Source: Pigoraptor chileana (lineage: Eukaryota > Opisthokonta > Filasterea). Taken from it: a stretch of 30,137 nucleotides of DNA. The translations under genes and the position numbers were made by a program. The notes under the pieces are model-generated. The model searched no databases, was not told where the DNA came from, and saw only the letters and a program-made list of their open reading frames with translations. Positions 8,654-27,045 of this stretch are shown here, one piece after another. Every line of letters begins with the position of its first letter. The stretch's first letter is position 1. Where the stretch lies: positions 29,329 to 59,465 of the forward strand of contig CALSCR010002063.1 in the NCBI GenBank assembly GCA_943704495.1, written 5' to 3'.

Positions 8654-10809
<2,156 letters not shown>

Positions 10810-11426: not shown

Positions 11427-14400
11427 ATGGTGCCCGCTGATGCACGGGTGATGCGCGGGAGGGTATTGTCGCGTGTGGGTAGTGTGGGCGAAATGGGTGT
11501 GCCCAATGGCGCGAGGAATAATGCCGGCGATGCGGGTGCCCACTCTGCCGCGGCGTATGCGCTCCAGGCTAATCTCGTCGCGCTTCTCAATGATCCGACC
11601 CCCGAGGTGCGCTGTTGGAGTGAATGGGATCGCAAGGCAATCTTTTGGCCCAGGGTCTTATTTATGTTGATGCAAGTGTAGCGCTGATTCCATTTCTGTT
11701 ATCTTCCCAAACCTGTGTTCTTCCACAGGGACGGAAGGAGAATCAGATGATCTATGCGAAAGCTTGGGGGGAGGCGTGGACTCGCCCGGTCCTATCTCCC
11801 CATCCCGACATACCGCGGATAGCGCGATCGGACTTTGAACGATACTTAACGCGCATTTATGGGGTGCGTAGGCCAGTATTTCCTTGCGATGGTGTAGCCC
11901 TAATTTGATTTGCGCTGATTCCAGTCTGGATTGGATTGGCCTCTACAACAAAGGCTTGCATAGTACTGAGAGTTCTCCATCCCATCCGACACTTACAAAC
12001 ACACACAGGACAATCCGTACCGCCAAAAGCCGCTTGGTCGGCCGCTAGCGCCCGAGCCAATCGGCCTTCCTGATGTGTCTGACAGCGACGAGGCTGTGCG
12101 TGACCCGGCAGCTGTGCGGAGGAAGCTCGAAGGTGGGTATCCTCGTGAATTGTAGACCCCATGCATAATGGCGCCACGTGCCGTGTCGGGCTCATCGATG
12201 ACCGAAACTAGCATGCTCGAACAAGTCACTCACCCTTGCGCTTTTTTGTTTGTGCGCTCCGTTTGTGAATTTAGAAGCTGCGCAAACCATCAATGATGCA
12301 CTTGTAGATGTTCCGCAAGAAGTGTTTTCGCCTGAGTTTCGGCTGAGCGATCCTGCCATATTCGAGTCAATCCTGCGTGTGGAGGAGCACATGCGGCTTG
12401 AGGCGGAAGGTCGCGCCCACTTTATGTCCTCATGCAAGCTGCACCAGGAGAAGGTGGGTTTGTGTCCGTCACAGTAAACATCAATTGCAAATAGGCTTAG
12501 AATTTTCACTCGTTGCTCACTCGCAGTGCACGCGTGTCAATTTTGTCCCATGCAGCTCTCCCATTACCTCGATATGGTGGAGATGCAGCTCGCCCGACAG
12601 ATTTCCCTCCGCTCGGGTGCTTTTTTTGGGGCCATGCGGTCCCAGGATGATTTGTACGATGAGGTTGACAGCTGTTGTCTGGAAATTCACACGCTCCGAC
12701 GTCAGCTTGCGGTTGCGGATGGGGCTCTTGTTGTCGGCGCCCTGGATATTCCACAGATGCTGCGACAGCGGACGAACACGGTGTTACTGTACCGGAAGGT
12801 GGGAGCGCAGCCTCTGTCTCCTCATTGTCAGGACTGTGGAACTGGTCGTCCATATTGGATGATATGACTTGTTATATATTGTGGGTTGGGTTGCGCATTT
12901 CATGGGGCTGCAATGGCGGCGGCTCCGTGTGTCCTTCTGATTGAATCTGATGGAACCGTCGCCCACCTGATCTGGGCTTGTCTCTATTGCACTCTTGTCC
13001 GTTTGCAGCTGCGACTTATGATGAGCGTGCAGCAAACCCAGCCGACCATTCAGCTGCTCCTTGCATCGTCCGATTACGTGCGCGCCCTCGAGCTCATCGC
13101 GGCAACGCATGAAATTCTGCACACGGAGCTTGCGGGGGTCCAGTGCTTCAGGTGATTGATTCGAAAATGATAGTCTTTTCCGTGTGGTCTTCTGTTTTCT
13201 CCGCCTCATTCTCAACCGATGGATGATCAATGTGTCGTGCAGGCATTTGGGGTCGCAGCTCGCCGAAATGGGACGACTTATAGGTACGATGATGGAATCC
13301 GACCTTCTCGCGTGTGCTCTCGATTGTGCAACAGCCGCGGGAGACGGCAGTGCGCTTGATGAAAGCACTGCACTTGCCGCTGTCGAACATCGAGCCGACA
13401 GATTCCACGACCGCTTGGCGCCAATTCTTCTTGGGCTTGTACACGCGCACAAGACGGCATCACTTGCGGCATATCGGGAGGCGGTTCACACACGCATCAA
13501 GCTTGCCATCAAAGAGGTGGGTGGCAGTCCCTTATTGTGTAACCGTGGTGAGAGCGTGCGCGCCGGGTGTACTGTGTCGCGAACTCATTTCCTTGAAGTT
13601 GACTGTAATATGTACCTTTCATTTTTGCAGTCGGTATCCAACTACCTCTCATCTGTCAATGATGACGTTCTTCGGACCGAAGCAAGTCTGGGTGACGAAA
13701 AAAAGACAAGGTAGTCCAATGTGTCTACCATGGAATTCGCTCGGTGCTCACACAATCAGTCACCATAACAATGTGTCTGCTCGGTGATGTTGGTAGTGCG
13801 ATTATTCTCATTTATAATCATAATTGTTTATTAACCAATTATGGCCTTATAGATTAACCCGCTATGTTTGTATTGCAGCTCTCTCACTGAGCAAATGCGA
13901 CAGTTGGGGTTTCGTCACTGGCTCCAGATGCTCGCGTGCATCTATGCAGCACTTGGCGACATTCTCGTTGGTTTGCGGGCAGTGCACTCGATCATTGCGT
14001 CGGTTGTCGGTGATGGGCTGCAGGCGCCGTCGTTTTCGACTGCGCATGTGCAGCGCGACGAGGACGCATCCGGACGGAGTGGTCGAGGTCACGTGCCCCC
14101 GGGAAAGAGCGCATCTGCACCGACGTTGGATTCGTCCCACAGCGATGTTGTGACTGGCGCGTCGTCAATCTACGCCGGCGATGCACTGGAGGGCGACGAG
14201 TTGATTGCGGCGCTTGCGGGGAGCGCGCCGCCCAGTCATGTGCCGAATGCAGCCGTGAAACCCGACTTTATTGCGCCGTCCATTCCAGATGCGGGTGGCA
14301 GCACATCGGCACATGACGCCATGGGCGTGCCTTCGGTCATTTCCTCTGATTCTGGTGACCGGGTGCGGTTTTTGCGAGATAGCGACGAGTTACTCGCGTC

Positions 14401-16123
14401 TGCGGTGGAGCTTGCCCACGCTCGGTGCGCAAAACTGCTTGGAGTGCGGTCAAATCAAACCGAACGCCTTTCGTCAGGCGATTTCGTTCAGTTTTTTCGC
14501 TCATGTGATGCATTTATTGCCGCAACCGAGCTGGTCGCGCGAAGAGGAGGCCTTGGGTTGAGAGGTGCGCTGCTGTCCCAGGCGAAGCGCTTCATGCTGA
14601 GTTTTCACGACCAGCGCGTTGTGTCGCTCTCAGCTCTGTTGAGGGAGGAGCGCTGGGTGCAGTCGGAGGTCGCTTCAGAACTGCAGGCGATTGTTTTGCG
14701 CCCCCTGGAGCTCATCCCTGACGGCATCGCCGCGTCGGCGGGTCTCTTGTCTGGTAGTGTCGACCGGACCGATGCTGGCACCCTGCGAATTCAGGGGCGC
14801 GACTACAGGGTTGCGGGATGTGCCCTCATGTTTTTGAAAATGGTCACCGAGTACTGCGAGTGTGCTGCCGGGATACCCGCGCTCGCCGTGGATGTCATGA
14901 GTCGGCTATGTCTCCTTCTGAAGGTGCGCTAGAGAATGAGTGACGACTTATGAACTTTGCTTGTCTGTTTTTGAAGCATTGTTAATGTTGTGAACCCACT
15001 TGCAGCTGTTCAACACGGAGACGTGTAAGCTTATTTTGGGCGGCGGCGTTGGACTAAAGACCATCACTGCGAAGCATCTCGGTTGGTTGCCTGCAAATAT
15101 CCTTCTGCTCTTTTGAGATGAAAATGACCATTATTTGTTCTTATCCCGTTTTCTCGGTTTGCTGGATGTTGGCCGATCGTAGCTTTGACAGTCCAGACGC
15201 TCTCGGCGGTCGTGGCGCAAATCCCTGTTGTGCGCGCATTGTTGTCGTCGCAACTACCTGAACGACAGCGGGTGATGCTCTCCGAGCTTGACCGCATCAA
15301 CAAGGTCTGTTACGCACATGCATGTTGTCCCGTCCATTGATGTAGATGTTGTTGGTGACCGTTCTGCTCTATGCTCTGCTGAATGTACGTGGCTTGTATA
15401 CCCCCCTTTTGTTTCTGTGCAGGATTATGTGGACCATATCGATCAAATTCGGAAGAAAATTGTGTCCATAATGAATGACGTTTTCTCCCACGTTCTAAAG
15501 GTACGTTGGGTCCGTGACCTGGCTTGTCATCTTGTTTTACATTTGTTTGGCACGTCTCGAGGTCTGAGACATCTGACAACGCGCAACTGTCTGTCAGGAT
15601 TTTCGGTTGGTAGACGATCTCCCGAGTGGAACGGCCTCAGCATACATGCGCGCTCTTGTCAAGGAGACTGGCAAGCTGCACAAGGTTCTGCAGGACCTTT
15701 TACCAGCAGACGACATGAAGGTGCGTCATCTTTGGCGACAACCCCGTTGCCATTGCGGCCCAAGTTACCTTCACCTTCGGACACTCATCCACATATGGTT
15801 GTGCTGTTTGTATCTGTAGTTGATCTTTGGACAAGTGTTTTCGCTCTACAACTCAAGGCTCCAAGAAGCATATTCTAAGGTGGACCTGCGCCAATCATCG
15901 CTTCAAAAACGGTAAGTCTCGCCTTGCTGTACTCACGATGGCCGCCTTGTCCGTCTGCAGCAGAGAACTATCCTCGCACCCGCCAGGCCGGGCACTCACC
16001 TTCTATACATTCATGTGCAGGGTAAATACGGACGTTCGTTTTTTCATTGACAATCTGACCGGCCTCGGGGGTGGGATGCAGGGTCCGGGGAACGACCTCT
16101 TGGCGTTCGCACGGGCACATTGA
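11427..16123 (+). CDS. VPS54: GARP complex subunit VPS54
   Basis: Fifteen exons join in frame to 998 residues, close to human VPS54 (977): 11427-11606, 11729-11863, 12009-12132, 12275-12453, 12556-12798, 13009-13151, 13243-13516, 13631-13710, 13879-14923, 15006-15081, 15183-15304, 15423-15500, 15598-15720, 15820-15911 and 16021-16123. The family forms the GARP tether that captures endosome-derived vesicles at the trans-Golgi. Diagnostic blocks are LSHYLDMVEMQLARQIS, QQTQPTIQLLLASSDYVRAL, HEILHTELAGVQCFRHLGSQ and, in the C-terminal Vps54 domain, DYVDHIDQIRKKIVSIM, with KLHKVLQDLLP and DVRFFIDNL after it. Residues about 505-610, inside exon 9, are a Ser/Gly/Asp-rich, probably disordered insert. 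The stop lies 165 bp from the stop of the convergent receptor gene. Confidence 0.96.
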
Positions 16124-16254
16124 GTACAGTAAAGGAGCATGTTCGGACAGCTGAATCACCCAATTGAACCACACTAGCAAAGGGCATTCACATCCACATG
16201 AGAAGCGAGTCGAATTCCATTAGACTGTATGTGCTTGTTTAATAATTGCAGGCA

Positions 16255-16276
16255 GCGGCGGCGGCGGCGGCGGCGG
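16255..16276. repeat. (GGC)n trinucleotide repeat
   Basis: About seven GGC units a dozen bases past the stop of the receptor gene, so its mRNA would carry a (GCC)n run in the 3' UTR. Confidence 0.85.
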
Positions 16277-16288
16277 TAGAGGCGCCAA

Positions 16289-19200
16289 TTAGTCCTGGTC
16301 GGGCCTAACCACAATTTCGGATAGGTCGGGTCGTTTTGATGCGATTGCGTGACCCTTGTCGACGTGGCGATTGCCATGTCGCATCATTATCTGCCTGAGC
16401 TGCATGTGATTAATGTGCAACAAGAAGGTAAGATGGGAAAGAACAGGATCATAGCGGAGTCCAATGGCACGGCACAACAACCTATGGTGCAACAGGGCAC
16501 ACCTTTTCATTGTCTCGCATGAGTCGCTTGCACTCGTCCTGGAGGAGAGTGAATGCACGGGCATCACCGGTGCCGCTGAGCTTCGAGTCCATGTCCGTCA
16601 TGCGTGTCTGCGATGAGTCTCCCGTCGCCGACGTGGACGTTCCGTCGCCCTTGCCCAGCCGATGGGCGCGATGTTTCGGGAAGAATATCAGCGCAACGGC
16701 CATCCCCACGGTGAGGTCGACCTGAATCGCAGTGAGCGCAAACGTGATGTTGGAATCCTTCGAAACGGCGAACTGAATGATGAGCTGTACAATAACGCTC
16801 ACGAAAAACCAATTATATACAGAAGCGCTGATAAATTTCGACTCGTTGAAGGCGTTGGGGGTCTTCCGCACGACAAACGCAAGGCGGATACCGTAGAGAA
16901 GAACGATCAATTCGACGATCATGATGACATAATTCCACCAGTTTGTGTGGCACTGCGAGTTGATCTTATCATCCACGAGTGTATATCCGCTCGACGACTC
17001 AGTGACTGTCAGCCCGGAAGTGGTCTCCACGTACGGTGCACCCGCAGCAGACCATATGATCATGTAGGCAATGAAAACGGACACGGCACCCGCAAAATAG
17101 CGAAAGAGAACGACGTCGTTGAGGCGCACTTTTTTGTTGAGCTTGGAATTAAAAATGATTGCAATGCTGCACAGAAAACCGTACCAACGTGATTGGAGTC
17201 AATGCTCATGCATGGCGAAGAGAACGCGATTCAAACACAGAGGGGAACACAGACCAACAGCGCATAACCAGGCACAGAATGGCCCACTCACCGCTGCGTT
17301 TTGAGCACGAGTGCACAGAGGATAAATGCAAACCCAATATGAATGCACCACTGCTGCACAGTGCAAAGGGCAGACGTTGGAGTTGGGTAGGCAAAGAAAA
17401 CCCATGAATACGATATGCACGATCTGCAAAAGACAAAAGAGGCAGGTACCAGAATCCGTCGTGTTTAGCAGAATTGTTGCAGAAAGCACTCTTAAATCGG
17501 ACGGTTATGATCCAAAAGCTACACAGACAAACGTCATTAAATAATTGATATAGTCATCACGTCTGGCAAAGAGCACAAGAAAAAGCCTGACTTGAATCCT
17601 CTCTCACCCCGCCAAAATGAGCGCCAAGAACTGTGGACTCGCCGATTTGAAGATCTTGACCTCACGTGATTGATACAGGCGGATGCTCATAACAATCGAC
17701 ACGCAAACGAGAACGCAGCCCAGCGAAAGAAAGAAAATGTAGACTCCCTCCACACGGTTGTCCGTCGCTGTGTTATTCGGAATAGCCGCCAACAAACGGA
17801 GCTCACGATCAGCCAAGTCAACGACCCAAGCCTACTGAGCATGCGTGTCTAAACACACCTTTGCACACACGCACACTACATATATAAATACATATACAGA
17901 CACAGACACAAACACAGACACACAGAGACACACATACTGAGGCACACATACACACACACAGAGCAACGCATACCCTCTGGCAGCACAAGTAGCTCAAACG
18001 GAGACCCAGAAATCGAATCGTTTCCATAGAGGACTGTGACATTGTAAGTCCCTGGCATGTTCACCGTGAACCAGACCGGGTATCCATCATCAAGGCTTGT
18101 GTAATCGCTCACGGAGACAGATTGCTGCATGGATGGAAATTCGTTGCTGACAAAATTCACCGTAAAAATCTTGCCGTTTTTGGCGGGGGAAGGGTTGCCA
18201 AACTTGTCCGCACTGTAAACGAAGAAGCGCGCGGGGTAGGTTGCGACAACCTTTTTAATGCCTGGTCCGTACGTATACGTCTGTGCAACATCTGGCTCCT
18301 GTATGGTTGAATGTTGATCCATGAATCCGCTAAAATGTTATTCGCCGCGTTCGCTCGCATATAAAAAAACACCAAGAGGTTCATAAGCACATCAAACTTT
18401 CAAAGCAACTTTGGATCCCAACTAGTCAAGTATCACTAGTAGGCAGATTATGCTCATGGACTCAGACCATATCACCCTCCGAGTGAATGCATACTATAGC
18501 TCGACAACTCCCTTATCAGCACTGAAATGAAATGGTGAAAGGAAATAAATAACATCAAAGAGGCCTCTATACATGTGCACTGGTGCCAGCAGAGAGAACA
18601 AGACACAAGAGTGTTAATAAAAAACAGACCTCAGGAAGGACAGAGATGTTGAATGGACTCCCCACGATATCCACGCGGTTGAGCGTAATCGACAATTTGT
18701 ACGGTCCCGACACCGTCGCAAGATAATCAATTGCGTATGTGCCGTTGGAAAAGTCCTTAATGTCCGCACGAAAGTATGCCTGATACTGCCCAATGGAAAA
18801 CCCAAACGCAGAGAGTTCCTCTCCACCAAACTCGACAAATCGTCCCATCGTATCACGGACGCGGACCAAAATGCGGCCCGTCTGACCAGCGGTGCCAAAA
18901 GTCAGCGCATCTCCAGTTGCGGTGGTCTGCAAGGGGTCCGTCTGTACTGCATAGAGCAGGTCGGTGTCATCGAAATAGCTCCCCGGGGGTTTGCAGCCGC
19001 CATACATCAATAGCCCCTCACTGACAGAATCAATTGTGTGTGACCAACGGCGCGGTGGGGCAGTTCCCTTGACAACCGGGACCGACCATGTGAGAGTGGG
19101 AAGGTGCAGTGCATACACAGCATCATCATAATACCTGCATTGGTTGACGTGATTACTAATGGGTCAATTCGGACACCAGGAACAAGGGAGGCCTGTTGTG

Positions 19201-21501
19201 ACTGTTGCACTGCAAGCAAACATCAGTATGTTCTCATAACGTTCAAGATTAGTCAGAAACGAACCAATCTCCAGCGCTATCGAGGTATCCGCCGCCCACT
19301 GAAAACGCAGTGTTATTCACGAGAGCAAGTCCACCAAATGATGTATCCGGCGGCACGGCCCCATCTGGCATTGCCGTCTGCACATTCCCTACAGTCCATT
19401 GATTTGTGGTCACATTCCACACATAGACCTCATGATTGAAGCAGTCGGGCCCGCCAGTGTCTGCAATCATAATGCAACAGCAGGCAAGCGAGAGTGATTA
19501 GTAGCCCACCAACACACACGCAGCCATGCATCACAGAATGTCCATCGCCAGAGGAATAGTAACATGCTCAACCCACTGGCGGAAGAGCAAGTCCAGCCTC
19601 CGACGATATAGACGGCCCCAGAGTAGTACACGCAACGGGCGCCGCTCAATGGAGGCGGCACAGTGCAGTTTGCGGGGGTGCATGATGCGAGACCGCAGTC
19701 GGTGGACGGGGCATTGGTGTTCGAAGTGTTTGTCCAGTATGACAGAAAATTCTGCACAACAATCGAAATGCGTTCCATGACGGGTAAGATTGCAAGGATA
19801 TTCAAATAGACACGCACGGTCACCATGCATAAAAGGTCCTCACATCATACGTCGCATTGATTGTAGCCGCACTATCCGCATCGGTCAGAGAGCCAAGGAA
19901 AGCCCGCGAAGCAGTGATGGCGTCTGCGGATGATTTTGCGGCAGCCCTGCACACAAGACGGTCACAGATCGCCGCATCACATTATTTTAGTGATAAACGT
20001 CGATTGCGTACCACAGTGAGAGCAAAAAAGGTCGAACGGAGAAAACTTACGCGTTCTGGGCAGCAGCATCATCAAGCCACGATCTCACTTTAGTAACGTT
20101 GAATGGCGTGTTTCCCTGTGATTACAGACATGCGGAGAAGTGCACACTCGTTAGTCGAAATCCGCACCCATTGCCTCACTTGTGACACGACACAGTCGCG
20201 CAGTAGGAGGATCACATGTGCTGCTGCTGTCGAGTGGGTCACCTTTCGCTGCGAGATGACCAGTGCACTAATGCCATCTGCAAGGGTTGCCACATCGCGA
20301 AACTTGGATGTCTCCCTGGCCGTGTTTGAAAGGGGTGTGTAGGTGGACCCGTCCGGACAATTATATGCCACTACAGACCACGACCAGTTCGATGTTTCTG
20401 CAGAAAAAATACACAGGTGACGACAGATTGTCATTTATGTGACAAAACGACTTGTCATATCCGAGATCGACACGAGCGACACCTTACCGAGAGTGTATGC
20501 GCGGTTCTGCAGTATGTGATTGTGACCGCGGAAAAAGCAGTTAGCACAGTTGCATGCGCATCAATGGGTGGTGCAAGCAAGCAACGAAATTTTGCGACAG
20601 AAAACACAGACAGACCTGGTCCGTTTCATAGTAATAGCCCCCGAAAATGAAAACTTTCGAGCCGAACGAAGTGACAGTTCCCCAGGAGACCCCGGGAGGT
20701 GCATTTGCAGTACCCGTGACGGAGGGCTGCGGCGGTAAGATGACAAAAGTGAGCATTGGAAATTCCAGCGCTTGAACTAATTCGCTTACAAAAGTTTCGA
20801 TCAGAGGTAGCGCTGTTGCAAAAGCACCTGTATCCACGTTGGGTTTGAAGAAGACAGATTGACGTAGTGAACGTCATTAAGTGTGGTATCAGTCTCGTCG
20901 ATTCCGCCAATGACAACGAAAAGGGATCCCACGATTGCCTGCATTTCAAAAGGGAAATTTCAGATGCAATTCCATTGCGGGGCGCATCTGGCCCAGGGGC
21001 AATGCAACCAAAGACACACCCACCGCGGCTGAGGCGGACCGCGGTGATGGTTGGGTTCCATTGACGGCGATCTCAGTCCACTTCTCGTTCAGCGGGTCAT
21101 ATCTGAGGAGCGAATTGTACCTGCGATATTGCATTGGAGCTGTTAACAAGTTGCTTAAGAAGTAAAATGACCGAATAGACTCTCAGGTGAACCCACTTCA
21201 GCAGTGCACCATCTTTCTCAGAATAGCCGCCAAACACGTAGACTTCATCTCCGAACACGCTGCTGGCATGATCGCAACCGGGGTGTGGACGGATTCCATT
21301 CTCTTCAACGACCCTGCGTAGGAAAACACCCAATCACACTTCAGCGCTCTGCAAAACATGGCGTCAAACAGATGAGAAGGCAGCAAGTGTTGGAGCAAAG
21401 GCGAACCTCCAGGCGTATTCGGTGGCCGCACACTGTGTTGACAAGAACACGGCGGCCAGGATCACAATTGAACAGCGCACCAAGCAGCGCATTCTTGACA
21501 T
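16289..21501 (-). CDS. Class C-type seven-helix receptor with Kelch and filamin-repeat ectodomain
   Basis: Seventeen exons give about 1072 residues: 21501-21407, 21313-21197, 21120-21024, 20938-20828, 20726-20616, 20506-20488, 20397-20243, 20115-20051, 19946-19844, 19751-19577, 19460-19265, 19134-18630, 18298-17960, 17831-17608, 17423-17292, 17166-16503 and 16399-16289. A signal peptide (VILAAVFLSTQCA) leads into Kelch blades at about 40-470: VYVFGGYSEKDG, LFVVIGGID, VFIFGGYYYET, VYIVGGW, FSVGGGY and GLLMYGG. A non-Kelch insert lies at about 200-325. Two filamin/ABP280-type repeats end in GSPFNISVLPE and GSPFELLVLPE. A family 3 seven-helix core follows: SASPQFLALILAG, then Cys-x3-QQW-CIHIGFAF in TM3, KTQRIAIIFNSK, and NESKFISASVYNWFF in TM6. 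There is a Ser/Thr-rich tail and no Venus-flytrap domain. The end of exon 13 (17960 or 17974) is uncertain. ATGs at 21534 and 21525 could also start it. Ligand unknown. Confidence 0.85.
17880..17962. repeat. CA-rich imperfect microsatellite
   Basis: (CA)n/(CAGA)n tract filling the intron between the second filamin repeat and TM1 of the receptor gene. It obscures the exact 3' end of exon 13. Confidence 0.8.
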
Positions 21502-21534: not shown

Positions 21535-21985
21535 CCGAATCTTCACAGTGATTTATGCGACATGTCGCCTTTACTACTGATGTATTTTCTTGTCAGTTTG
21601 GGGTCTCCCATTGTAGCCACACTGTTGCACCACAGTCAGGTTACGCGCGCCCAGTCAAACAATCACCCGGGGGTGTTGATTTGAAACATTCGGCGTTTTC
21701 AGAGCCGTTGACTCATTTGAGTCTGCGCCCACTCTTGATCGACTGGCTGTTCAAATCGAATGAGGGGACTTTACCCAGGGGTACTCACTCACTCACGCTC
21801 TGACTTTACCTCTGTTCAAATACCACTGCATAAAATCCATCAAAAATCACTTTTCGTGGAGTGCAGAGTGTGCCGACATGGTCTGTGAATTTCAGTCCAC
21901 GTTAATAGCCGGTACAATCTTTTCAATTTGTATCTTTTTTGATACTGCACGGTTGGTCGGCACCCATGTTTAGTGCGAGCGGCCG
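21535..21985. other. Intergenic region, nothing recognised
   Basis: About 450 bp between the receptor start and the TXNDC15-like stop, both minus strand. It presumably holds the receptor promoter. I see no RNA gene, repeat or further exon. Confidence 0.5.
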
Positions 21986-23209
21986 TCAGTAAGGCTTGCA
22001 CACGTACCAGCACATGAAGGCGAACACATAGAGTGACGATAGGCACAGCAGTATGTCGTCACCGAAGCGTTCTTCAGGAGTCGAGTGCGGCTGATCCGCG
22101 TCGAATCCAGTAGGGTTGCTTGGCCCCCGTGCCGATTTCTTAGGGGCGCCAAAGTCTGCGAAGAAAACAATTTAAAAATTGCAGAACGTATCAATTGCCT
22201 GAATAGAAAGGAGGGGGGAGGGGGGAGGGCCAGATTGCTGAGCACCGAAAAATAGCAAACAACGCACCATACAAAACGGTAGCAAACTGGAGCACATCGT
22301 CAAGGGTTCCTGATCCCGACCGACGAGCAACAACACGGCCATTACGTATTGCCAGGATTGAAGGCACTGACCACACTCCAAATCGCCCAATCAATCTGGC
22401 AGACGGGGAGAGATGTAGGATTCAAGTCAGTGATCCATCAAATATAGTGGCGGAGTCATGGATGGGTTTCATCATGCAATTCTTCGTACAAAGCAGCATA
22501 TTCACCCTCGAGCTTCTTGCACGTCCACAACAGCTGCCGCAGATATTAGGAGAGCACGACTTGCTTCTTGGAAGACATTTTTCAATTGTCTTGAGAAAGG
22601 GCACCATTCTGCATTCACCTAAAAATAATGGCCAAGAAGTGAGTATCACCAACCAACAGCAAACTGTGAACAGAAGGAGGACATTCGATCGACGTACTAG
22701 GATAAACACAGGTTCCGGAAAGTTGGCGTAGTCTTTTAGTAGGGTTGCCAGTGAGTCCTCCGTCACATTAAGCAGAGCATGGTCCCTGTCGCAACCGCTT
22801 TCCGATACTGCAACTGGAAAGGGAACATGGCTGAGCACGAAGTATGGATGATCGCTGCAGCGTTCATACACAACTCAAAAGAAATATTCTCAAGATTGCA
22901 AGGAGTAGTTGTAATGGAAGCGGGTTGCTTACCAATCGAGCAAGACGACCATCTGTGCGGTGCAAATGTGCGGCTCTGGTGGTTGGTGGACGTGCAAGGC
23001 AATGCCCAAGTGACACTTTCAGTGATGACTTCACGCCCACAGTCCGAATGTGCACCTTTGAAACTGTGCTTGCTCCATTCGGCATCGATAACGCAGCTCC
23101 GTGCCGCCGGACATACAGTGGTGGTGACAGTCACATCCCCACTGCAGATGCCTAAGGAGCACAGCACAGCAGCGGCAAGAAGCAAAGCAGTGCTGCTGCG
23201 ACAACCCAT
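21986..23209 (-). CDS. Membrane-anchored thioredoxin-fold protein, TXNDC15/APR-like
   Basis: Five exons (23209-22933, 22813-22698, 22618-22506, 22395-22268, 22155-21986) give 267 residues. There is a signal peptide (TALLLAAAVLCSLGICSG), then a Cys-rich lumenal segment of about 80 residues with six or more Cys. A thioredoxin fold has NAEWCPFSRQL (Cys about 137, C-x-x-S) and the cis-Pro loop GVWSVPSI (Pro about 180). A single C-terminal membrane helix at about 245-263 and a five-residue tail complete it. The C-x-x-S site has one Cys, so a full disulfide cycle is unlikely. The topology matches TXNDC15, an ER/ciliary transition-zone protein mutated in Meckel-Gruber syndrome, while WCPFSR is also typical of plant APR-like proteins. 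I cannot decide between these. It is divergent from the RDM1-like gene. Confidence 0.8.
22207..22230 (+). repeat. G-rich run with quadruplex potential
   Basis: GGAGGGGGGAGGGGGGAGGG on the plus strand. In the minus-strand TXNDC15-like transcript this is the pyrimidine tract of the last intron (22267-22156), which may be its main role. Confidence 0.6.
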
Positions 23210-23581
23210 ATAAAATTGGCAACGAGTAACCGCGGACTTCATGCGGCCGCTGTTGAAGACTGCAGTCCGTTTCAGACTGCCAATCGCATTCGGTTTATCA
23301 CAGTGCCGCAGACGGGCGGCTTCGCCCCTGGTTGCGATGCACAATTGCCGACTGAGATGACAGACTTTGATGAGTATGGATCATCAGCGGTCATCAATAA
23401 AATTGGCGCCATTTGGTGAATTTGAACCGCGGGAGGTCAGTGAGTCGTCAACTCGCTCCGTACCCTTTTGAGTTGTGTACAATATCACTCCGATCATGAA
23501 CAGACTTATTATTAAGGTGCAATCAAATAAATACCAAAGAGAATAGTCAAAGTTGTATTGTTTACGAAGCCTCCCGCCGTT
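23210..23581. promoter_or_regulatory. TXNDC15-like/RDM1 divergent promoter with E2F-like motifs
   Basis: 372 bp between divergent starts. TTGGCGC at 23403-23409 fits the E2F consensus TTSSCGC, and GCGGGA at 23429-23434 is an E2F core on the other strand. The TATAAAA-like run next to the TXNDC15 ATG is AT-rich sequence of unclear role. Confidence 0.35.
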
Positions 23582-24741
23582 ATGGAAGTACTTCTCTTTG
23601 AAGCCCCTCTTGCGGACGAGAACAACTTGTGCGTAAAGAATGCGCCTTGCGATCTTGACGTCGAGGTGGGTCCATTGGCCTCAGTCGTTCTCTTCGAATA
23701 TAATGGCAATTGATCCGTGATTCTGCAATCTACCTTGTACATCCAGGATATATTTGGCCGATTCGGTCTCGTGTACGAAGTGCAGGTGGTCTCGTATAAT
23801 ATACCTGGGATCGGCGCACCACAAAGTGAGCTGCCGGACATGTTGTTAACTCGGCCATAAAAGTTTGGTCCTGTAGTCTTATTTCATTATGTGTCGCGTT
23901 TCCAGCCAGTACAGTAACGTATGTGAAGTATTATTCGGCACAAGATGCGAGAGCTGCTCTCACTGCGCTCCGGAAAACTACAATTTGTGGACGAACAATC
24001 CAGGTTAGTGAATTGCCAATAATTGAACGTGTCCTCATTTCGCTTACGACTGGAACCCAGTTTCCGGTTCTAATTGATAGCGACGTCAACGAATTTCCAC
24101 AGGTCTCTCGCGTGAAACGATCTTGCGCCCCTGCACCGTTTGCGCTGCCCCTGTTTAAGTGCATTGACTTGGCGAACCACTTTTTTGGGTTCAATGGATG
24201 GTCCTGCGAAGTTGTCGAGGTAAGGCTGATAATATATGCCTGTGCTGACTGTCGTACTGCATCTTGAAGGTACACAGCCAAACTTTTTGGCTCTTATGGC
24301 CGACCTGGCTCTTCTATCTTTCTTCCCCGAAAGGCATCGACATCCAGATTGAATGGACCACGGCATCAACCACATTACGAATGCCAGTGCAGTGTGCGTG
24401 TTTTCGTCGCTGGTTTTGACGGCTGCGCACAAGGTACCGGTGCAGTAACCACCATGCATGCCGCAAAATGCATCGGAGAATCCAGTCCGGGTGAGTCAAT
24501 GCGTCGCAAGATGGCGAGAGCGATTAGGGTGTGAGCTGCGCTCATGAAAGCATTCGGCTGCAATGCAGGCATCCCCACGCTCGTGCGATATGCGCGTCGT
24601 GCAGCGGCATCGCTTGCCAGCCAGCGTGCATTCGGCTGCATCGCGATTGTACGGCGGACATCCCATCCAGTCAGCGTTCGCTTTTTCGATAGGGCGGTAT
24701 CGCATCATCCCGCACCCGACGGCGAGTGCCCTGCCCTGTGA
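23582..24741 (+). CDS. RDM1: RDM1-like protein, RRM plus RAD52 motif
   Basis: Six exons (23582-23665, 23747-23825, 23906-24003, 24103-24219, 24334-24490, 24569-24741) join in frame to 235 residues (human RDM1 has 284). Residues 1 to about 87 form an RRM, with IFGRFGLVYEVQV and YVKYYSAQDARAAL. A Lys/Arg patch leads to CIDLANHFFGFNGW at about 107-120, which matches the RAD52-motif segment ELANYYFGFNG of RDM1. The last part has CQCSVRVFVAGFD, then a helix (RRAAASLASQRAF) and IAIVRRTSHPVSVRF, as in RDM1 after its KRKTAQKLA helix. RDM1 binds nucleic acid and is linked to the cellular response to cisplatin damage. The fifth exon uses an AAAG acceptor after a strong pyrimidine tract; it is the only AG that keeps the conserved frame. 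The stop is 101 bp from the PP2C stop. Confidence 0.85.
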
Positions 24742-24842: not shown

Positions 24843-27045
24843 TCACAGCGGCACGCCCTCAATTTCGTCCTTGGCCTCGTCGTCGTCCTTCTCTGGCGCG
24901 GGCTTGATGGGCACTGCGTCGGTCGCGGGGACGGAGCCCCTTCGCCCCTGTTGCAGAGCCACGCGCGCCAATGCTGCGGACGGGTCGTCCTGCGAGGCCC
25001 ACCGCCCGCTTGTGGCGTCGGTATCTGTGCGGGACCCCCTGCGCCCGCCTGCGCCCTGGGCAGACTGATCGACGTCCGCTTTCGAACCGCGGCGGGACGA
25101 TTTGTACTCGACGTCGACGGCGGGCGCTGCGCACGCCGGTTCGCTCGATGGGGCAGCCGCGCCTCCTGCAGCATGGGCTGGGGGGGCAACGCTAATCGGC
25201 TTTGATGACGGCGGTTTGTGGAGAAAGACAATGATGACCGACACGTTGTCCGTCGACCCCAGTTCGAGTGCGTTCTCCACAAGTGCTTCGGCACTGCCCT
25301 TCGTGTCCCCGTCATTGTTGTCAAGATATTGGTGCACAAAATCCACGACTCCCTGCGGATCCATGACATCCCACAAACCGTCGCAACCGAGTACCAAAAA
25401 CTCGTCGGAATTCTGCAGTCCAAACTCTAGAATATCGGGTTCTCCAATGACGTATTTCTTGAGATGTTTGTCGCCAATGGCGCGCGCGACTGACAAAACG
25501 CCATTAACGCGCCACGCCCCATACCACACGACGATTCCACCCGCATTCTCAATGCGCAGCTTTTCGTCCTGCCGATGAAAAAGTGGCAAATACGAGGACG
25601 TAAGACGGCGTTGAGCACCTTCTTTGCCACATGTTCCTTACGAAATATCTGCAAACTACATGTCCGTCAACAGCACCTAGTCCACATCAACGTACCTCAC
25701 GATCTGGTTTGTGTGGAAACGAAAGCTGCAGCGCTTTGCCGTCGCGACAGAGAATCGCCTGCGAGTCACCAAGCCAAGACACGTATAGCTCCTTGCCCCG
25801 AATCAACGTCGAGATGCACGTTGCCCCACTTGTTATACCCTGCAAAAGCACACCCAGCGCGCCATGAGAATACAGTCCCTAGCCAGATGCAATGAAAACC
25901 CTTGCATGCACGAGCGCAGTGAAGCCAGTGTCAGAAATCAGAGTGGGCCATACCGACCTCCCGCTCCGCCTTGGCCAGAAACGACTCATCCGCCCTCAAA
26001 AAACCGTCCATGAGAGCCTTGGTAATGTCCTTTTTGAACGACTCCTGCCGCGATATGAACACATGGAGGTGCGTGCGTGCATACTCCGCAGCCTCGATGC
26101 CGCCATGGCCGTCATAAACGGCAAAAAATGCTTGCGGAGGAAAGCCCTGGTGCAAAAATTGGATGCGAATAGAAAAACACTCAGGAAACACACAACGGGT
26201 ACAAGCGAGACATGGAATGAACGACACAGCCGTGCCACACACCTCCAGCCCAAGCAGTTCATTGAGGTCCAAAATGGACACGTGCTTGTCCTCCATTGAC
26301 GGCCGACGGCCCTGCGCTGCAAACGTCTGCACGTCGTAGACCATACTCGGCCTAGCAGAGGAACATTCATAGAGGATAAGTAAAGAATACATTGCAAAGA
26401 TTGAATTACAAAGGCGGGCCCTACTTACTTCTGGGACCGGCCAGCTCGCGTATCTTTCCATGTCTGGATGCCCTTGTCAACCTCCGAGAATACAGTCATT
26501 GCAAGCTTTTCACCATCAAAAAGAACGCCCTCGGGGCCTGCGCACGGAAAATAAAAGCAATCCAGCAAAGTAATAATTAAGATCATTAATCAGTAAGATC
26601 ATCAGTAAGATCATACCGTGTAAAAATGCGACCAAGACACCACTAAGACATGCAACTCACCACTGTCAAGAGCATAATCCGTGAGGTCCATCTTCATTAG
26701 TTTCGCCACAACCGAGCCGGTGATTGACAGCATGCCTTGCTCGTCAATGTCGCTGGCGCCCCCAGCGGTTTCCTCAGCGCACATGTCCTCATTACGCTTT
26801 CGAATGTACTCGAGCGCCAGATACATAGCTTCTGCTTCCGCCTCTTCTTTCGTAAACTTCTCGGGCGGTCGAACTGGTAGAGGGACAGTTGGGGTTCCGC
26901 TACGTTGTTGTTGCGCAAATTGCTTCAAGAACTGGCGATGCTTTTGCAATGTCTCGCCACGTAGGTCATTTGAGCGGCGCCTGCCCAGTGGAGGCAAAGA
27001 TCCGCCTGCAGCCGGCGCCCCGAGGGTGGTGGGGTTAGATGCCAT
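24843..27045 (-). CDS. PP2C-family protein phosphatase with RRGS-rich tail
   Basis: Six exons (27045-26661, 26537-26429, 26351-26243, 26146-25958, 25839-25696, 25568-24843) give 553 residues. PP2C motifs appear in order: RRPSMEDKH, FFAVYDGHGG, SGATCISTLI (most relatives have SGSTA), VSWLGDSQAI, SVARAIGDKHLKKY, LVLGCDGLWDVM and STDNVSVIIV. The acidic metal ligands (YDGHGG, DGLWD, STDN) are intact, so it should be an active Mg/Mn-dependent Ser/Thr phosphatase. An N-terminal extension of about 165 residues is polar, with an RRRS motif. The last 120 residues are Ala/Pro/Asp-rich, with three RRGS motifs and an acidic end. No signal or membrane segment is seen. It is convergent with RDM1. The subfamily (PPM1-type) is not resolved. 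Confidence 0.95.

Follow-up and report, generated by a model that had tools for sequence, protein, structure and literature searches.

A predicted class C receptor from Pigoraptor chileana with a Kelch propeller and two filamin repeats outside its seven-helix core

The window analyzed here, a 30,137-nucleotide stretch of a Pigoraptor chileana contig, contains a receptor gene on the minus strand (21501..16289). Its many short introns, densely spaced, mark the window as eukaryotic. The following genes and features lie around it.
9076-9717, plus strand: MYST-type zinc finger (3.2e-21), belonging to a gene, probably for a histone acetyltransferase, that seemingly extends to about 10809.
13000-16123, plus strand: Vps54-like gene (GARP complex), convergent with the receptor gene and ending about 165 bases from the receptor stop; its 359-aa frame at 13853-14932 matches PF07928 (1.7e-6).
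16252-16277: GGC trinucleotide run between the convergent Vps54-like and receptor genes, just past the receptor stop codon.
21970-23226, minus strand: gene whose product, putatively secreted or membrane-bound, has a signal-peptide-like start, MGCRSSTALLLAAAVLCSLGICSG; two of its frames gave no Pfam match at E <= 0.01.
23830-24267, plus strand: frame matching the DSRM domain of RDM1 (6.6e-8), with a weak Rad52 match.
24843-26476, minus strand: multi-exon PP2C phosphatase gene (1.4e-33 and 8.4e-11).
Rfam and tRNA scans were empty. No paralogue of the receptor was found within the window, where the significant tblastn matches were the gene's own exons only.

In our splice model, 17 exons join into one open frame of 1046 aa. 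This model has the same gene, strand, and ends as an earlier sequence-only reading. All introns are GT..AG and span 76 to 331 bases, the shortest, apart from the options for intron 13, being 76 nt. The exons, all on the minus strand, are listed below, together with the least certain intron.
Exon 1, 21407..21501: start codon, signal-peptide-like segment CLVRCSIVILAAVFLSTQC, and first propeller strand (EYAW).
Exon 2, 21197..21313: Kelch blade 1 (VYVFGGYSE).
Exon 3, 21024..21120: end of blade 1 and linker toward blade 2; joined in phase through a GTGGGT donor.
Exon 4, 20828..20938: Kelch blade 2 (LFVVIGGIDE).
Exon 5, 20616..20726: Kelch blade 3 (VFIFGGYYYE).
Exon 6, 20488..20506: 19-nt micro-exon of blade 3 (NRAYTL).
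Exon 7, 20243..20397: last part of blade 3 and first part of the insert.
Exon 8, 20051..20115: insert, helical-looking.
Exon 9, 19844..19946: insert, Ala-rich and helical-looking.
Exon 10, 19577..19751: Cys-rich end of the insert and Kelch blade 4 (VYIVGGWTC).
Exon 11, 19265..19460: remainder of blade 4 and blade 5 (FSVGGGYLD).
Exon 12, 18630..19134: final part of blade 5, then blade 6 (LLMYGGCKPP) followed by filamin repeat 1 (ending GSPFNISVLPE).
Exon 13, 17974..18298: filamin repeat 2 (ending GSPFELLVLPE; Filamin 2e-12).
Intron 13, 17768..17973: TG-rich; least certain junction.
Exon 14, 17608..17767: TM1, intracellular loop 1, and start of TM2.
Exon 15, 17292..17423: TM2 and TM3 (CTVQQW..LVLKTQ).
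Exon 16, 16503..17166: remainder of TM3, TM4 through TM7 (FNESKFISASVYN, FFPK), and the greater part of the cytoplasmic tail (7tm_3 6e-21).
Exon 17, 16289..16399: end of the tail, extending a leucine-zipper-like stretch from LLQDECKRLMRDNEK into LRQIMM.

The micro-exon provides the Y and L that are expected ahead of the Trp in a Kelch blade; automatic gene predictors may miss an exon of this size. If the last splice is omitted, translation stops at 16482 and yields a protein of 1016 aa. Exon 17 is mildly supported because the short leucine-zipper-like stretch carried by the tail crosses the last splice site (NEK joined to LRQIM).

The junction between exons 13 and 14 was rightly flagged as uncertain in the sequence-only reading; the acceptor proposed there (17831) and its donor (17974) do not match in phase. 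We enumerated every in-frame GT..AG pair for this intron and scored each with a matrix built from the other 15 introns. There are 21 such pairs, so that in-frame joining is by itself weak evidence. The top-scoring pairs share the acceptor ending at 17768, which scores 2.7, compared with 6.8 to 14.1 at the other introns, and would place the start of exon 14 at 17767. With exon 13 ending at 17974 and the intron running 17973..17768, the product has a tight linker, VLPE-ATDNRVEGV (VLPE-ATDNRVEGVYIFF); an alternative in-frame donor lies a few bases downstream of 17973. A TG-rich low-complexity stretch within the intron (17870-17960) may mislead gene predictors.

Pfam search of the whole protein matched all three families named in the sequence-only reading: Kelch (Kelch_KLHDC2_KLHL20_DRC7, 4.5e-45), Filamin in two stretches (5.8e-23), and 7tm_3 (1.5e-39; 136.6 bits against a cutoff of 33.5, covering profile positions 6-251 of 251). 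Several Kelch models scored above cutoff, and the attractin/LZTR1 (ATRN/LZTR1) model matched the propeller at 6.2e-28. The domain calls are independent of our splicing choices, because all three families also come up in single unspliced exons (7tm_3 at 6e-21, Filamin at 2e-12 and 2.3e-10, Kelch at 3.8e-8). The fusion of Kelch and filamin modules is not in doubt, since both lie in exon 12 within one uninterrupted frame (Filamin 2.3e-10, Kelch 3.8e-8). Sequence matches to solved structures point the same way for each part: the propeller matches Kelch proteins (down to 1.3e-23), the filamin part matches gelation factor and filamin A/C (down to 6.7e-13), and the core matches GPR158 (4.8e-18), GABAB2 (9.5e-17), and mGlu2 (1.6e-9). 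AlphaFold2 models of single exons, made without an alignment, had pLDDT values of 32.5 (exon 12) and 58.9 (exon 13), too poor for confirmation of the fold, and Foldseek with the low-confidence exon 13 model gave no match at E <= 0.001. Scans with the full protein yielded neither relatives nor a homologous locus nor a transcript in viral and prokaryote contig collections, which contain no protist genomes, so that this result says little.

By its core, the predicted protein is a class C (glutamate-family) GPCR. TM1 to TM7 occupy about residues 695-953. Seven hydrophobic spans and the positive-inside pattern of the loops (4, 5, and 3 Lys plus Arg in intracellular loops 1-3 versus 0, 1, and 0 in extracellular loops 1-3) indicate, as sequence statistics, an orientation with the N-terminus outside and the C-terminus inside. 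Conserved class C residues are present: C765 at the start of TM3 and C861 in extracellular loop 2, the expected partners of the disulfide between the two, along with LVLKTQRI at 783 (TM3), FNESKFI at 895 (loop 3/TM6), and FFPK at 950 (end of TM7). The K, R, E, and PK of these motifs align with GPR158. The TM3 QQW signature described earlier is found in exon 15 as CTVQQW.

The architecture described from the letters (a signal peptide, a Kelch propeller, two filamin repeats, and the class C core) holds in the spliced protein. Residues 1-24 are signal-peptide-like, and the exon 1 segment has a hydropathy of 1.93 over residues 6-24 in an open frame. Six Kelch GG motifs follow, at residues 60, 114, 169, 342, 405, and 460, and thus exceed the four or more repeats, able to close, by which a Kelch propeller is recognized; blade 6 lacks its last strand, which probably comes from the N-terminal EYAW segment. 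Blades 3 and 4 are separated by an insert of about 130 residues (about 197-330), Ala-rich and helical-looking at first and then Cys-rich. The filamin repeats, at about residues 481-583 and 585-685, close with the reported GSPF-x-x-x-VLPE (GSPFNISVLPE and GSPFELLVLPE); they are only 23% identical to one another and so are not a recent duplication. Repeat 2 also matches Ig_GEX2_N (1.2e-6, Pfam). The ectodomain contains 13 N-X-S/T sequons versus 6.7 +/- 2.3 in shuffled sequences (p 0.008). Both the positive charge of the intracellular loops and the excess of N-glycosylation sites in the ectodomain fit a surface receptor.

The lack of a Venus-flytrap domain, also claimed earlier, is borne out: ANF_receptor, Peripla_BP, and NCD3G had no match in the whole protein up to E = 1 (Pfam), which excludes a receptor of GABAB or mGlu type. 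Pfam likewise gave no match in the whole protein to GAIN/GPS or 7tm_2, excluding an adhesion (class B2) GPCR, and none to Cache or EGF, excluding a member of the mGlyR/GPR158/GPR179 subfamily. Filamin proper is excluded as well: there are two filamin repeats but no match to the actin-binding CH domain in the whole protein (Pfam), and the N-terminus is signal-peptide-like.

Among known receptors, GPR158 (the metabotropic glycine receptor) gives the best solved-structure match to the core (4.8e-18) and, with GPR179, shares the lack of a flytrap and the presence of a small linker domain beside TM1. Their ectodomains, however, are Cache/PAS plus EGF rather than Kelch plus filamin, and GPR158 differs further in binding RGS7 through its intracellular side and a cytoplasmic coiled coil. 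GABA-B receptor subunit 2 is similar in its core (9.5e-17), in lacking a cysteine-rich linker domain, and in having a coiled coil in its tail, but the Venus-flytrap ectodomain of that subunit is missing here. The two added modules each have an extracellular precedent. The Kelch propeller of attractin lies outside the cell, and its model is among those matching the propeller described here, although attractin crosses the membrane once and contains CUB, EGF, and lectin domains, with no seven-helix core and no filamin. GEX2, a membrane protein with extracellular filamin-type Ig repeats, shares the module seen in repeat 2, but it has a single membrane span, no seven-helix core, and no Kelch propeller. 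GEX2 is a plant gamete adhesion protein, and its filamin-type repeats have been described as extracellular (PMC4160995). The Kelch and filamin modules noted earlier are present, whereas the statement that such modules are usually found inside cells was too strong.

The earlier presentation of a replaced flytrap as exceptional is similarly overstated. Within the animal class C receptors, GPR158/179 have Cache plus EGF in place of the flytrap (PMC12716839), and glutamate-family receptors outside animals have diverse ectodomains that include Pentaxin, TIG, 5_nucleotid_C, Cache, type II SBP, pectin-lyase, and Ephrin_rec-like modules (PMC12716839, PMC3251606, PMC5168858). As in the present receptor, 7tm_3 lies below a non-flytrap module in receptors of Capsaspora (Pentaxin, TIG, 5_nucleotid_C), diatoms (Cache_1), and gut fungi (pectin lyase, type II SBP); the TIG module of Capsaspora is Ig-like, as filamin repeats are, yet belongs to a different family.

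We favor, as the somewhat more probable account, a single protist gene encoding a class C surface receptor with a Kelch propeller and a filamin stalk, which would respond to a contact-type ligand and couple to G proteins. The N-terminal EYAW strand would close the propeller ring at blade 6. By analogy with attractin-like and gamete-adhesion proteins, the propeller face and the insert would bind an extracellular ligand, likeliest a partner protein or a glycan displayed by another cell or surface. The two filamin repeats would form a short rigid stalk that relays a positional change to the helices, taking the role that falls to a Cys-rich or EGF linker in the class C receptors of animals. The receptor would probably act as a dimer, perhaps aided by a short coiled coil in the tail, and would activate a heterotrimeric G protein through its conserved intracellular side (TM3 KTxR, loop 3/TM6 FNExK, and FFPK at the end of TM7). 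We prefer a ligand of the contact or adhesion kind because the nearest extracellular uses of Kelch and filamin modules, in GEX2 and attractin, are of the adhesion type; the adhesion or glycan sensing suggested in the sequence-only reading appears reasonable.

The main rival retains the fusion as genuine but casts the protein as a chemoreceptor that detects small molecules or sugars in solution and in which a pocket of the propeller or the insert replaces the flytrap. The ligands of Kelch propellers of known role are mostly proteins or peptides, and the filamin repeats resemble those of adhesion proteins such as GEX2. Both points weigh against a chemoreceptor, although small soluble ligands are what most class C receptors detect and class C receptors of gut fungi have putative sugar-binding ectodomains (PMC5168858). 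We regard this reading as possible and rather doubtful. A mechanosensitive receptor, in which a pull on the propeller would unfold or slide the filamin repeats and alter seven-helix activity, appears unlikely: intracellular filamin repeats do serve as mechanosensors (PMC5011733), but there are just two repeats here, with no evidence of pairing like that of the force-sensitive filamin A repeats, and no specific feature of the sequence points to mechanosensing.

Very unlikely, finally, is the wrongful joining of two neighboring genes, of which the first (exons 1-13) would encode a Kelch-filamin protein for secretion and the second (exons 14-17) a class C seven-helix protein, to which the weakest acceptor in the gene and the TG-rich low-complexity stretch of intron 13 would lend themselves: the exon 14 frame has no ATG from its upstream stop (17834) to TM1, the first Met lying inside TM1; an out-of-frame ATG near 17840 (MLSRLGSLTW..) could be used only in the wrong phase and with an intron of about 39 nt, far shorter than any other; and no more than about 206 bases would have to accommodate polyA site, promoter, and start codon. 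The Kelch-filamin and seven-helix parts very probably belong to one gene.

The receptor is in line with what is known of class C receptors outside animals, whose outer parts vary. The combination of Kelch and filamin with a class C core seems to be undescribed: a Kelch or filamin ectodomain is not mentioned in the main text of PMC12716839, PMC3251606, or PMC5168858, and no class C or other GPCR with either module was found in the literature searched, which did not extend to the eukaryote-wide GPCR survey of de Mendoza 2014. The same combination of Kelch, filamin, and 7tm_3 may already be present, unremarked, in databases. More tentatively, the protein could represent a receptor class not described before, its Kelch propeller recognizing another cell or surface from an Ig-like filamin stalk and driving the class C core.

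The nearly complete gene model adds to the evidence that extracellular modules with no relation to each other have been joined to the class C core many times, the flytrap being one ectodomain solution among many. A ligand, if found, would show how a propeller carried by Ig-like domains, in place of flytrap closure, switches the class C core, a question of mechanism beyond the reach of flytrap receptors alone. If recognition of a cell or surface proves true, the glutamate family would have evolved adhesion-type GPCR signaling independently and with no GAIN domain.
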